Assembly: GCA_015272165.1 (NCBI GenBank)
Contig: JACYMF010000106.1
Coordinates: 1 to 64,000, forward strand
Length of the DNA stretch: 64,000 nucleotides
Origin: Cyanobacterium sp. T60_A2020_053
GTDB lineage: Bacteria; Cyanobacteriota; Cyanobacteriia; Cyanobacteriales; Cyanobacteriaceae
Reading direction: 5' to 3'
Under the pieces are notes generated by a model. That model was not told where the DNA came from. It worked only from the letters and a program-made list of their open reading frames with translations, and ran no database searches. The stretch's first letter is position 1. Each line of letters opens with the position of its first letter. A program made the translations under genes and the position numbers. Below, in pieces: positions 10,775-13,799 of this stretch.

Positions 10775-10884
10775 ATTAGTAATTGATAATTGATAATGGA
10801 TAATGGATAATTGATAATGGATAATTGATAATTAATTCTTTGCCTACCTATTCATTCATAATTCATAATTCATAATTCATAATT
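10775..10884. repeat. Short tandem repeats between miaB and the rRNA methyltransferase
   Basis: Alternating GATAATGGATAATT units are followed by ATTCATA units, the same two families seen at 3063-3155. The run ends at the stop codon of the methyltransferase gene. Confidence 0.75.
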
Positions 10885-11677
10885 TCCTTTGCCCTTCTTT
10901 AAATAATTGTCTTTGGTATTCTGCTAAGAGAAAAGCGGTGGCAATGGCAACGTTAAGGGATTCTACACCGTTGACGAGGGGAATTTTCACTTGATGGGTG
11001 GCAAGGTTGCTTAAATCGGAAGATAAGCCTTGAGATTCATTTCCTAATAAGATTAAAGTGGGTTGAGAAAAATCAATTTGTTGAGGGGTAAGATTCCCTG
11101 TTAGAGTAGTGGCGACAATTTGAAAGCCGAGATGACGATAGTTATTAACATGGGTAACCAAATCAGGCTCGGTTTTTGCTGGTAATTTGAACCATTCACC
11201 CACGGATGATCTTAACACTTTGGGGTGATCTAAATCAACGCTATCAGCACTAAGCCACAGCGCCCCTACCCCTACACCTACACTGGTACGAATTATTGTA
11301 CCTAAATTACCGGGGTCTTGAATAGTCTCCAATACCAAACCTAGTTTAATGTTTTTTGGGTCAATATTAATATTCAGTTGCCGTGGCGCACTAGCAACTA
11401 TACCATCGGGGTTGACGGTAGTAGCAATTACTTTCATCACTTCATGGCTAACGGTTTCCACTCTCTCGGCATTCTGTTGTAGTTTTGCCCACAAATCGGG
11501 GTATTTTTCTTGCCATTCCGGAGTAGCCAATAGGCAATGTAAGGGGTAGTTAACTTGCCAAGCCACTTCCAAAAGGTTTTTCCCTTCTAATAAGCATAAA
11601 CCCTCTTGATGACGGTGTGGAGGGCGCTGTAATTTTCTAATTTCTTTGATTAAAGGGTTTTTTGTGCTAGTCAGCAT
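10877..11677 (-). CDS. SpoU/TrmH-family rRNA 2'-O-methyltransferase
   Basis: This is a SAM-dependent RNA ribose methyltransferase of the SPOUT class. The first part of the protein is an RNA-binding substrate domain (TSTKNPLIKEIRKLQR, then LLEGKNLLEVAW). The catalytic knot includes LETIQDPGNLGTIIRTSVG, LLGNESQGLS and IPLVNGVESLNVAIATAFLL, all three diagnostic motifs. I start it at the ATG at 11677, giving 266 aa. The reading frame stays open for 74 more codons upstream, but these lie in a GGGGAGAC-type minisatellite and read as repetitive LPVSPSP, so they are unlikely to be protein. The exact RNA target (RlmB-like or other) is not known. Confidence 0.9.
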   Translation of the reverse strand: MLTSTKNPLIKEIRKLQRPPHRHQEGLCLLEGKNLLEVAWQVNYPLHCLLATPEWQEKYPDLWAKLQQNAERVETVSHEVMKVIATTVNPDGIVASAPRQLNINIDPKNIKLGLVLETIQDPGNLGTIIRTSVGVGVGALWLSADSVDLDHPKVLRSSVGEWFKLPAKTEPDLVTHVNNYRHLGFQIVATTLTGNLTPQQIDFSQPTLILLGNESQGLSSDLSNLATHQVKIPLVNGVESLNVAIATAFLLAEYQRQLFKEGQRKL

Positions 11678-11682
11678 TTTTA

Positions 11683-11872
11683 GAAGGGGAGACAGGGAGA
11701 CGGGGAGACGGGGAGACGGGGAGACAGGAAGACAGCGGAGACGGGGAGACAGGAAGACGGGGAGACAGGAAGACGGGGAGACGGGGAGACAGGAAGACGG
11801 GGAGACAGGAAGACGGGGAGACAGGAAGACGGGGAGACGGGGAGACGGGGAGACAGGGAGACAGGGAAGCAG
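11683..11872. repeat. Minisatellite of 8-base units GGGGAGAC / AGGAAGAC
   Basis: About 190 bases are made almost entirely of two alternating octamers, GGGGAGAC and AGGAAGAC. The array begins only a few bases upstream of the methyltransferase ATG, so it occupies the promoter/leader position. It keeps all frames largely open and produces artificial open frames on both strands. Confidence 0.9.
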
Positions 11873-11888
11873 AGGAAGCAGGAGAGGA

Positions 11889-11930
11889 TTATAATTCATA
11901 ATTCATAATTCATAATTCATAATTCATTAT
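11889..11930. repeat. ATTCATA heptamer array
   Basis: Five or more tandem ATTCATA units abut the stop codon of the solanesyl diphosphate synthase gene and join the octamer minisatellite. They belong to the same heptamer family as 3127-3150 and 53490-53512. Confidence 0.75.
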
Positions 11931-12898
11931 TTGATGCGACTGAGGAGATAATCAGTTAATTCTAATAACGCTTCTGCGGAGGGGGAGTTACTTAAACAAT
12001 CCAGATTTTCCCTTGCTAAATCACTATGATAAGAAGCCAGCGCCCTCGCCCTTTCAATACCATCACTATCTTTAACCAATTCTAGGGCTTTCTCTAAATC
12101 CCCATCCTCGCTAAATTCCCTCTCAATTAACATGGTGAGACTCGGTTTTTCCTCCATGGCAAAGATGACGGGCGCTGTGAGATTACCACTGGCTAAATCT
12201 GAGCCTGATGGCTTACCTAATACCTCCGTAGGGGAAGTAAAATCTAAAATATCATCAACGATTTGAAACGCTAAACCCAAATTTTTACCATAATCATAAA
12301 TTTTGTCCGCTACTATCGCCCCTGAATCACTCAAAATTGCTGCCGCTTTACTACTATTGGCAATCAAGGAAGCGGTTTTAAAATAACTTTTCTGTAAATA
12401 CTTTTCTAAAGATACATCTGTATCAAAACAACTCAAACCCTGCTGAATTTCTCCCTCTGCAAAATCCCTAATCACTTCCGACAGTAATTTGACTACCTGT
12501 AAATTATCCAAATTAGCTAAATACCAAGAAGACTGGGCAAACAAAAAATCTCCGGCTAATACCGCAATACGATTGCCAAATAAACTATTTACCGTAGGCA
12601 CTTGACGGCGCAATTCGGCATCGTCCACCACGTCATCATGCACTAAACTAGCAGTATGTATCATCTCCGTAATTTCCGCTAAACGCCGATGACGCGCCGT
12701 AATTTCTTTACCCTCCATAGTAGCACGAGAAACTAATAAAACAATTGCCGGGCGGATTCTTTTGCCTCCCGCACTGAATAAATGTTCTGCCGCCGCCCCT
12801 AAAATGGGGTGCTGGGCGCCCACCAATGCAGTTAAATTGTCAATCAACAGGCGCAAATCGCTTTCAACGGGATGGAATAGGGAAGTTACAGTTGTCAT
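11927..12898 (-). CDS. sds: Solanesyl diphosphate synthase (long-chain trans-prenyltransferase)
   Basis: The enzyme condenses isopentenyl diphosphate units to make the C45 side chain for plastoquinone, so it serves photosynthetic and respiratory electron transport. The first aspartate-rich motif is in VHDDVVDDAELRR and the second in FQIVDDILDF; GGKRIRPAIVLL near residue 49 is the substrate-binding lysine/arginine segment. The chain is 323 aa and matches cyanobacterial solanesyl diphosphate synthases in its N-terminus (LFHPVESDLRLL). A shorter GGPP synthase role is less likely given the overall similarity to the plastoquinone-type enzyme. Confidence 0.9.
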   Translation of the reverse strand: MTTVTSLFHPVESDLRLLIDNLTALVGAQHPILGAAAEHLFSAGGKRIRPAIVLLVSRATMEGKEITARHRRLAEITEMIHTASLVHDDVVDDAELRRQVPTVNSLFGNRIAVLAGDFLFAQSSWYLANLDNLQVVKLLSEVIRDFAEGEIQQGLSCFDTDVSLEKYLQKSYFKTASLIANSSKAAAILSDSGAIVADKIYDYGKNLGLAFQIVDDILDFTSPTEVLGKPSGSDLASGNLTAPVIFAMEEKPSLTMLIEREFSEDGDLEKALELVKDSDGIERARALASYHSDLARENLDCLSNSPSAEALLELTDYLLSRIK

Positions 12899-13144
12899 TG
12901 ATGAGTTAGCAAAAATAGTTTACGAAAGTTTACATATCTTATTATTATTCTAAGCTATGGTTTACTTACTGTGTCAGTAAGTGTTGATCATATCTCAAGA
13001 CTGGGTAAAAAGAAAGGCTGAAAAGCTAGATAATGTAATGGTTATGGTGCTGTTAAAAAAAAATATTTTTTTTCTAATTTTTCTCATATCTGTGTTATCA
13101 TAATCTTAGGGAATGATAAACATTCCTGAAATAAGAGAAACTAA

Positions 13145-13339
13145 AACAGTCGTGATAGTTTGGGCTTTGTTTTGTCGTTAATGGATGAACGAGCTTTCGA
13201 CTGTTAGTAGGTTTTTAACTTCATTGTGATGAGAGTCAGGAAAAACAAATCAACTTCCCCAGTGGTTGATTCTATTTTGCCTTGTTTTCTGTTCTAAATC
13301 GAGATTTACTTTTCCGTCAATGTTGAAAGGTTGATCAAC
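13145..13339 (+). other. Structured spacer, candidate leader or small RNA
   Basis: Several perfect inverted repeats occur in a stretch with no gene. AACAGTCG at 13145 pairs with CGACTGTT at 13198. AATCAAC at 13248 pairs with GTTGATT at 13265. A palindrome GTTGATCAAC at 13330-13339 could compete for the AATCAAC arm. A further small hairpin (GGAATG/CATTCC) lies just upstream, near 13111-13126. The remaining 12899-13542 sequence has no convincing ORF of ordinary size. Direction and RNA nature are inferred only from the downstream small gene. Confidence 0.3.
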
Positions 13340-13542
13340 AATTTAGCATCATTATCAATTAATTTTATCCTTTATGGCTTATGCCAGAACCAAGGAAGTC
13401 AGCCTCTCTTTTGATGGTTTGATTTTCATTGCTATGGATTGCTGTGGATTGAATGCCAGAACGATAATATCAATATTTGTTGGTATTTTTCAGCGCCCTT
13501 CCCTAATTTTTTATTCACTCTTAACTCTCTGGAGGATTTTCC

Positions 13543-13638
13543 ATGTTGATTCCATTTCTCGCCCTTGTCTATGTTCTTTTGATATATTTATTATTAACCA
13601 TTGCCCAGAAGTTAAGAAAAGTCAATGGTAATGGATAA
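13543..13638 (+). CDS. 31-residue single-span membrane protein, unidentified
   Basis: An ATG lies seven bases after a perfect GGAGG ribosome site (13531-13535), which is stronger than most sites in this window. It opens a 31-codon frame. The product has an uninterrupted hydrophobic core (IPFLALVYVLLIYLLLTIA) followed by a basic tail (QKLRKVNGNG). Size and shape resemble the very small subunits of cyanobacterial photosystems, cytochrome b6f and NDH-1, but I do not recognise a specific family. A truncated MITE-3 begins about five bases after the stop codon. It is too short for ordinary gene calling. Confidence 0.55.
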   Translation: MLIPFLALVYVLLIYLLLTIAQKLRKVNGNG

Positions 13639-13642
13639 TTAG

Positions 13643-13735
13643 GTGGTGCTGAAAAAGTATCTTGGTGAGGGGAGGTGTCAGGCATCAGGTGTTAGGTATT
13701 AGGTTAAAGAATTGACAAAAAACATATCTTAATTG
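13643..13735. repeat. MITE-3, truncated copy
   Basis: Starts with the family terminus GGTGGTGCTGAAAAAGTAT and the CAGG(C/T)NTCAGGTGT-type tandem words, then loses similarity. It lies directly behind the 31-residue membrane protein gene. Confidence 0.7.
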
Positions 13736-13799
13736 ATTTTTTATGTTCAATTCTTTGAGCAAATTATATAATCGTCTGAAACCTGCAACATGAAACCTA

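Follow-up and report, generated by a model that had tools for sequence, protein, structure and literature searches.

Recently found small membrane proteins of cyanobacteria have roles in electron flow, ATP synthase control, and light acclimation. The locus described here, a 31-codon open reading frame (ORF) behind a long leader, lies in a 64,000-nt stretch of Cyanobacterium sp. T60_A2020_053 DNA (hereafter the window) and resembles several described systems. In Synechocystis sp. PCC 6803, SliP4 (HliR1) is a 37-aa one-helix membrane protein with its own promoter, first recorded as an RNA (excerpts of PMC5126843 and PMC12850537). It is encoded upstream of sodB and starts with MSNLIAVAF (read from a primer), and the excerpts of the 2016 report used here state that no homologue had been found outside Synechocystis (PMC5126843). 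We considered and rejected identity with SliP4/HliR1, given the different start and the different neighbours (here sds and murI). Norf4 from the same strain is also a one-helix membrane protein, has 31 aa, and is conserved in other cyanobacteria, but it starts with MTADQLL (again read from a primer) and its mRNA overlaps gap1 (same excerpts of PMC5126843). A further likeness is ncl0160, a peptide likewise small and conserved, which has been predicted within an RNA shared by many cyanobacteria. It is set apart from our family by length only (23–25 aa versus at least 27 aa here), and in the part of PMC4734099 drawn on it always has a possible ribosome site, whereas no clear Shine-Dalgarno sequence was seen at most of the Nostocales microprotein starts listed. 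The small subunits PetL, PetN, PsbT, PsaM, NdhP, and NdhQ are alike in length and in having a single helix (lengths as tabulated in the excerpts of PMC5126843) but differ in that our microprotein has no PDB sequence match and a patchy distribution.

Chr_ORF_2, an unnamed 36-aa prediction for PCC 6803 in a table of PMC5126843 (as excerpted), could be the same gene; we considered it because one copy of the microprotein (in G049) is 36 aa long. In PCC 6803, Chr_ORF_2 neighbours psaM; in G049 the distance between psaM and sds is about 232 kb. The literature searched, with many subscription papers and supplements beyond its reach, contained no such microprotein family. The family described below spans a whole order, is nameless in the libraries searched, and has an unusually long leader of definable length; both the microprotein and the leader RNA are open to direct test and to lookup in existing RNA-seq and proteomics data. 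Taking all parts together, we favour, with somewhat more confidence than doubt, the reading that the locus is a stand-alone gene, with its own promoter and long leader, whose product, a single-pass membrane microprotein from an undescribed family, acts as an accessory or regulatory subunit in an amount set by the leader.

The microprotein and its conservation

The ORF occupies 13543–13638 on the plus strand, begins with ATG, and translates to MLIPFLALVYVLLIYLLLTIAQKLRKVNGNG. A GGAGG ribosome-binding site at 13531–13535 (+), 7 nt before the ATG, is also present in four relatives of the genus. The product has a hydrophobic core and a basic C-terminal tail (KLRK), and AlphaFold2 models it as one helix over residues 3–29 (mean pLDDT 87.9). 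On these points (the 31-codon frame, a ribosome site at ideal distance, and a hydrophobic core with a basic tail), an earlier note made from this DNA alone proved accurate. That note had also named loss of the frame in the closest relatives as a refuting test; when the test was run with a 27-row profile at E ≤ 0.001, all 15 family genomes (the host's own among them) proved to have the microprotein. The host genome (3.36 Mb) contains one copy by single-sequence search, and the same kind of search, at a loose threshold of E ≤ 10, gave matches in 49 of 60 genomes when the host's own is counted. Across the phylum, 292 genomes were drawn for the profile search: 162 matched at E ≤ 10, a good many of which must be chance hits, and 75 at E ≤ 1e-3. 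Of these 75, 69 came from the same order (83 genomes in the draw), five from other orders of the class, and one from outside the class, which we take as chance.

Substitution patterns point to selection on the protein. Between the window and three genus members (L034–L036), dN was 0.25–0.26 and dS 1.28–1.72, giving dN/dS of 0.15–0.21 for these pairs, in which dS was not saturated; for the fourth member dS was saturated. Mean entropy at codon positions 1, 2, and 3 across 84 distinct cores was 1.28, 0.63, and 1.71, with the third position varying most and the second least. Tyr10, Tyr15, and Leu18 are invariant in alignment A1, which holds 27 of 30 microprotein loci (L036 and L049 were omitted as near-duplicates and L044 for having no ATG at its start) and in which long C-terminal tails were trimmed in a few rows. 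The pattern used to pick cores, both for the 84 distinct ones and for the helix moment, requires Tyr at position 10 and one of a few residues at positions 15 and 18, and a core fitting it is contained in all 86 loci (one genome is present twice, as L041 and L110). Invariance of Tyr10 among the anchored cores is partly built in and is therefore taken from A1, which is unanchored.

A chance open frame in an intergenic region might be suspected from the shortness of the ORF and its variable tail, but conservation across the family, the order, and the sds loci refutes this, as does dN/dS, and we give the idea virtually no credence. The ORF is clearly beyond chance and, by these comparisons, is a real protein-coding gene under purifying selection. 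The tail is variable in A1, and family members are at least 27 aa long and mostly 30–50 aa. In the window the protein has 31 aa versus 37 aa in the four genus relatives, and the end of a dispersed repeat (13637–13799, with at least 10 other matches in the same genome) abuts its stop codon, for which reasons we suggest that insertion of this repeat may have trimmed the tail.

Conservation falls on one side of the predicted helix. The conservation moment at 100 degrees was reached by 28 of 20,000 shuffles for cores anchored on the Tyr10 pattern and by 79 of 20,000 for the 27 unanchored rows of A1, and the conserved face lies around I3, A7, Y10, I14, L18, and A21, with Y15. Such one-sided conservation suggests that the helix docks to a partner in the membrane. 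Under the positive-inside rule the basic end of a membrane protein is cytoplasmic, and the basic tail therefore suggests a cytoplasmic C-terminus for the microprotein. Neither the window sequence nor the profile matched any PDB chain at E ≤ 10, and the window microprotein matched no Pfam or NCBIfam family. Other members gave weak matches to unrelated families in these two libraries, the best being TMEM154 (6 of 27 members, E 0.01).

Promoter and leader RNA

An extended −10 promoter element, TGTGTTATCAT, lies at 13091–13101 (+), with TG-n-TATCAT at 13093–13101, and an A/T tract upstream of it (13055–13073, +) is kept in the genus. With the transcript start inferred from the −10 element, the leader RNA would span 13108–13542 (+), or about 435 nt. 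Of 107 sds-upstream regions, 50 carry the motif T(A/G)TG(C/T)TAnnnT at a distance of 80–330 nt from the start of sds. On the opposite strand 1 region of the 107 has it, and in the 250 nt beyond 15 do, some of which are the same promoter placed further out. In Nostocales the promoter motif stands further from sds and reads TGTGTTAcgCTAaaAT..AGGaATTT.

The motif was found in 72 of 86 loci, where the leader, counted from 18 nt after the motif start to the start codon, measures 262–1070 nt with a median of 445. More than one match occurred in 4 of these 72, and using the first or the last gave the same range and median. The motif was not found in the remaining 14 loci, nor in G036. When only sds-selected loci are counted, 44 of 56 have the motif and the leader range is unchanged. 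Among the 17 Nostocales loci, the distance from motif to ATG is 495–554 nt in 15, the exceptions being L125 (816 nt) and L147 (474 nt, an earlier ATG having been taken), and the distance from sds to motif runs from 314 to 1073, about a threefold spread; three of these loci have two motif matches, of which the one nearer the ORF was used.

Promoter and leader are also kept with the ORF in Microcystis-like genomes, where the microgene lies away from sds. Here the motif precedes the matched frame by 279–282 nt in three genomes and by 504 nt in the fourth, and the DNA beyond the promoter is alike for ~50–70 nt within two strain pairs and otherwise unlike. As judged from this comparison, the leader is part of the microgene and stays with the ORF when the neighbour changes. 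These four loci, L206–L209, are those of G141, G285, G143, and G269, and L208 has an insertion of some 220 nt in its leader.

By itself the window leader showed no significant folding energy (z −1.41; 8 of 100 shuffles did as well), and support for structure comes from comparison. Across 44 sds-selected loci, leaders had a mean folding z of −2.91, compared with −2.23 for the antisense strand and −1.19 for an equal length of sds coding RNA. The leader thus folds better than either (Wilcoxon p 1e-6 versus coding RNA, 0.012 versus antisense). A genus-conserved structured part of the leader (13111–13284, +; model R1) contains a stem around AACAGTCG/CGACTGTT, an inner stem, and an AATCAAC/GTTGATT hairpin, and takes in the CAGTCG stem. 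Over five genomes this structure comprises 46 pairs, with pairing in 92.9% of cells and double changes at 7 pairs, and 0 of 500 shuffles equalled either the pairing or the double-change count, figures that come from five sequences, three of them close, and from the same alignment in which the structure was derived. Searched over 68 sources, R1 matched only its five training genomes. The next best candidate (L049, E 0.035) was rejected as lying on the opposite strand and off position.

Nostocales leaders contain a different element, a mid-leader hairpin of about 80 nt with the form GCAGAYY...GGTCTGC and inner AGTT..AACT and TTGC..GCAA stems. In 11 sequences it has 23 pairs, 97.2% of cells paired, and 7 double-change pairs, and pairing drops to 27–41% when the structure is slid by one column. 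The corresponding model, R2, gave 13 matches over 88 sources, all in Nostocales (L124, L125, L126, L128, L130–L136, L139, and L152), of which 11 are its training rows. Of the two others, L125 matched at E 2e-18 and L130 at E 1e-6, the latter being no training row of R2 but present in alignment A5 when the region was chosen; A5 is without L125, which has an insertion, and alignment A6 comprises 11 of the 16 rows of A5. R2 did not find the hairpin in L147, L154, L156, and L159 of Nostocales. No structure common to both clades was found with R1 over 68 or R2 over 88 sources, and Rfam 15 at gathering score recognized only the tRNAs of the window, with the leaders of the window and L126 at chance level. 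Compensatory base-pair changes exceed controls in the window's genus and in Nostocales separately, and on this comparative evidence the leader RNA is folded, differently by clade.

These results agree with the earlier note's description of a structured spacer: the leader is long, its folding z is below that of sds coding RNA, and it covaries in two clades. The several inverted repeats reported there are present where described, including AACAGTCG/CGACTGTT at 13145–13152/13198–13205 and AAAAACAAATCAAC/GTTGATTCTATTTT at 13241–13254/13265–13278 (79% complementary). Of the two hairpins that the note regarded as possibly mutually exclusive, one is conserved. The first, AATCAAC (13248–13254)/GTTGATT (13265–13271), spans 13248–13271 (+) and is kept in the genus with compensatory double changes, as the covariation check suggested in the note brought out. 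The second, TGTTGA/TCAACA (13321–13326/13335–13340; 13321–13340, +), has no counterpart in the alignment with four genus relatives, which is weak there. GTTGAT at 13265–13270 is able to pair also with ATCAAC at 13334–13339, but a conserved switch is not indicated because this alternative partner lacks a genus counterpart. The comparison does not support a two-hairpin RNA switch, the alternative helices not both being conserved in the genus, with the alignment weak at the second.

Genomic neighbourhood and an HLR1-like box

The divergent neighbour of the microgene is sds, encoding solanesyl diphosphate synthase (11927–12898, −; TIGR02749, E 1.7e-162), and a convergent COX15/CtaA gene (PF02628) follows downstream. 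Beyond sds, a minus-strand ORF (10877–11899) has PVSPSPRLPV-like repeats at its start (11646–11899), and its true start may be further in. We compared 110 regions, including 80 named loci fetched by sds alone (PCC 6803 is not among them) and 30 picked for holding or adjoining the microprotein; because of this preselection, rates of presence are taken only from sds-selected loci. The microprotein occurs in 56 of 77 such loci with at least 700 nt upstream, in a scan of both strands that placed all 56 matches on the strand divergent from sds. The 21 loci without it include Pseudanabaena, Thermosynechococcus, and Acaryochloris.

Among the 70 sds-selected loci with at least 2500 nt upstream, 51 have the microprotein. 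The glutamate racemase gene murI lies on the far side in 35 of these 51 and was not found there in the other 16; among the 19 loci without the microprotein, 5 have murI. This distribution suggests that sds–microgene–murI was the ancestral gene order. The window has ctaA where murI would stand, and the microgene remains beside sds. The converse arrangement, with the microgene beside murI, occurs in G036 and in four Microcystis-like genomes of one genus (G141, G285, G143, and G269), and sds was not found in the 3.5–7 kb read around the microgene in these five genomes, where two of the stretches end at contig ends. In G141, sds, whose DNA is 97% identical to that of Microcystis novacekii, lies 1.3 Mb from the microgene. 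Linkage of the microgene with sds is common, not obligatory.

Between sds and the microgene, 20 nt upstream of the sds start, lies an HLR1-like (RpaB-type) direct repeat, TTTACGAA-AG-TTTACATA (12919–12936, +), which agrees with the HLR1 consensus KTTACAWW-N2-KTTACAWW (as given in the excerpt of PMC13421787) at 15 of 16 letters. The motif alone is weak, with 50 sites at one mismatch or fewer in the host's own genome versus 36 for the reversed pattern, and 12 sites at two mismatches or fewer in the window versus 8.6 expected. A box matching at least 14 of 16 letters occurs in 94 of 109 sds upstream regions versus 10 of 901 control stretches. The putative sds box suggests that RpaB, and with it light and redox state, may control plastoquinone side-chain synthesis; a link of the box with the microgene would be conjectural.

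Possible roles of the protein and its leader

The neighbourhood raises the question of whether the microprotein serves sds, anchoring or tuning solanesyl-diphosphate/plastoquinone side-chain synthesis as part of a co-regulated divergent pair. Divergent linkage in 56 of 77 loci speaks for this, as do its retention in the 16 of 51 loci where murI was not found on the far side and the frequency of HLR1-like boxes upstream of sds (94 of 109 regions). However, much of the linkage is accounted for by gene order inherited from a common ancestor, as 35 of 51 loci also have murI; in G036 and the four Microcystis-like genomes the microgene stands by murI with no sds in the stretch read; and the window's box is closer to the sds start (20 nt) than to the microgene −10 element (about 155 nt). 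We regard a role in sds function as quite unlikely. Our assessment is also low, and we would be surprised by such an outcome, for an overlooked small subunit of PSI, PSII, cytochrome b6f, or NDH-1: the conserved helix face would suit one, and the size and one-helix build are like those of several small subunits (lengths from the excerpts of PMC5126843), but no PDB chain matched by sequence or profile at E ≤ 10 and the distribution is patchy. The earlier note had compared the layout with that of small photosystem or NDH subunits, a comparison that turns out to be analogy only, with no PDB match at that threshold and 21 of 77 sds loci without the protein.

The length of the leader directs attention to the RNA itself, which might be a regulatory RNA (possibly released as an sRNA) with the microprotein ORF at its 3′ end as a second product. 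Such a dual role would account for a Nostocales leader that is nearly constant in length and far exceeds the ORF, for the better folding of the sense strand than the antisense (p 0.012), and for the well supported mid-leader hairpin of Nostocales, and it has a precedent in the norf4 transcript, for which the excerpts of PMC5126843 suggest both roles. Against it, sequence and structure of the leader vary between clades, which those of the protein do not, and no Rfam family matched. We consider a dual-function RNA possible, though unlikely. A combination of these ideas is to us rather doubtful: one transcript would carry a clade-specifically folded regulatory leader and, at its 3′ end, the frame of a microprotein that attaches to a membrane complex, photosynthetic or quinone-related, and the cell would have two linked outputs from a single promoter.

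We return to the stand-alone microprotein gene with a dosage-setting leader. Comparison across genomes, our ground for these statements, shows an extended −10 promoter belonging to the gene itself, a long leader that accompanies the ORF, purifying selection on the protein, and a predicted helix with one conserved face. Most probably the microprotein is an accessory subunit in a membrane complex, and its production is controlled post-transcriptionally. In this model, the basic C-terminal tail would point toward the cytoplasm, and the conserved face would pack against a larger membrane protein, making the microprotein an accessory or regulatory component of a thylakoid or plasma membrane complex. 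The amount of protein would be set by the folded leader, through mRNA stability or translation. AtpTheta, a small cyanobacterial protein controlled chiefly by mRNA stability, provides a precedent (excerpt of PMC9241938). Control through mRNA stability, or through protein or RNA binding, seems more likely than simple hiding of the ribosome site because the start region is on average not closed by the leader. We rejected simple hiding on this basis: over 72 loci the start region is on average more, not less, open, with a mean unpaired fraction slightly above that of the rest of the leader (0.44 versus 0.38). In single loci the leader does close the start region, which is less open than average in L033 and L126.
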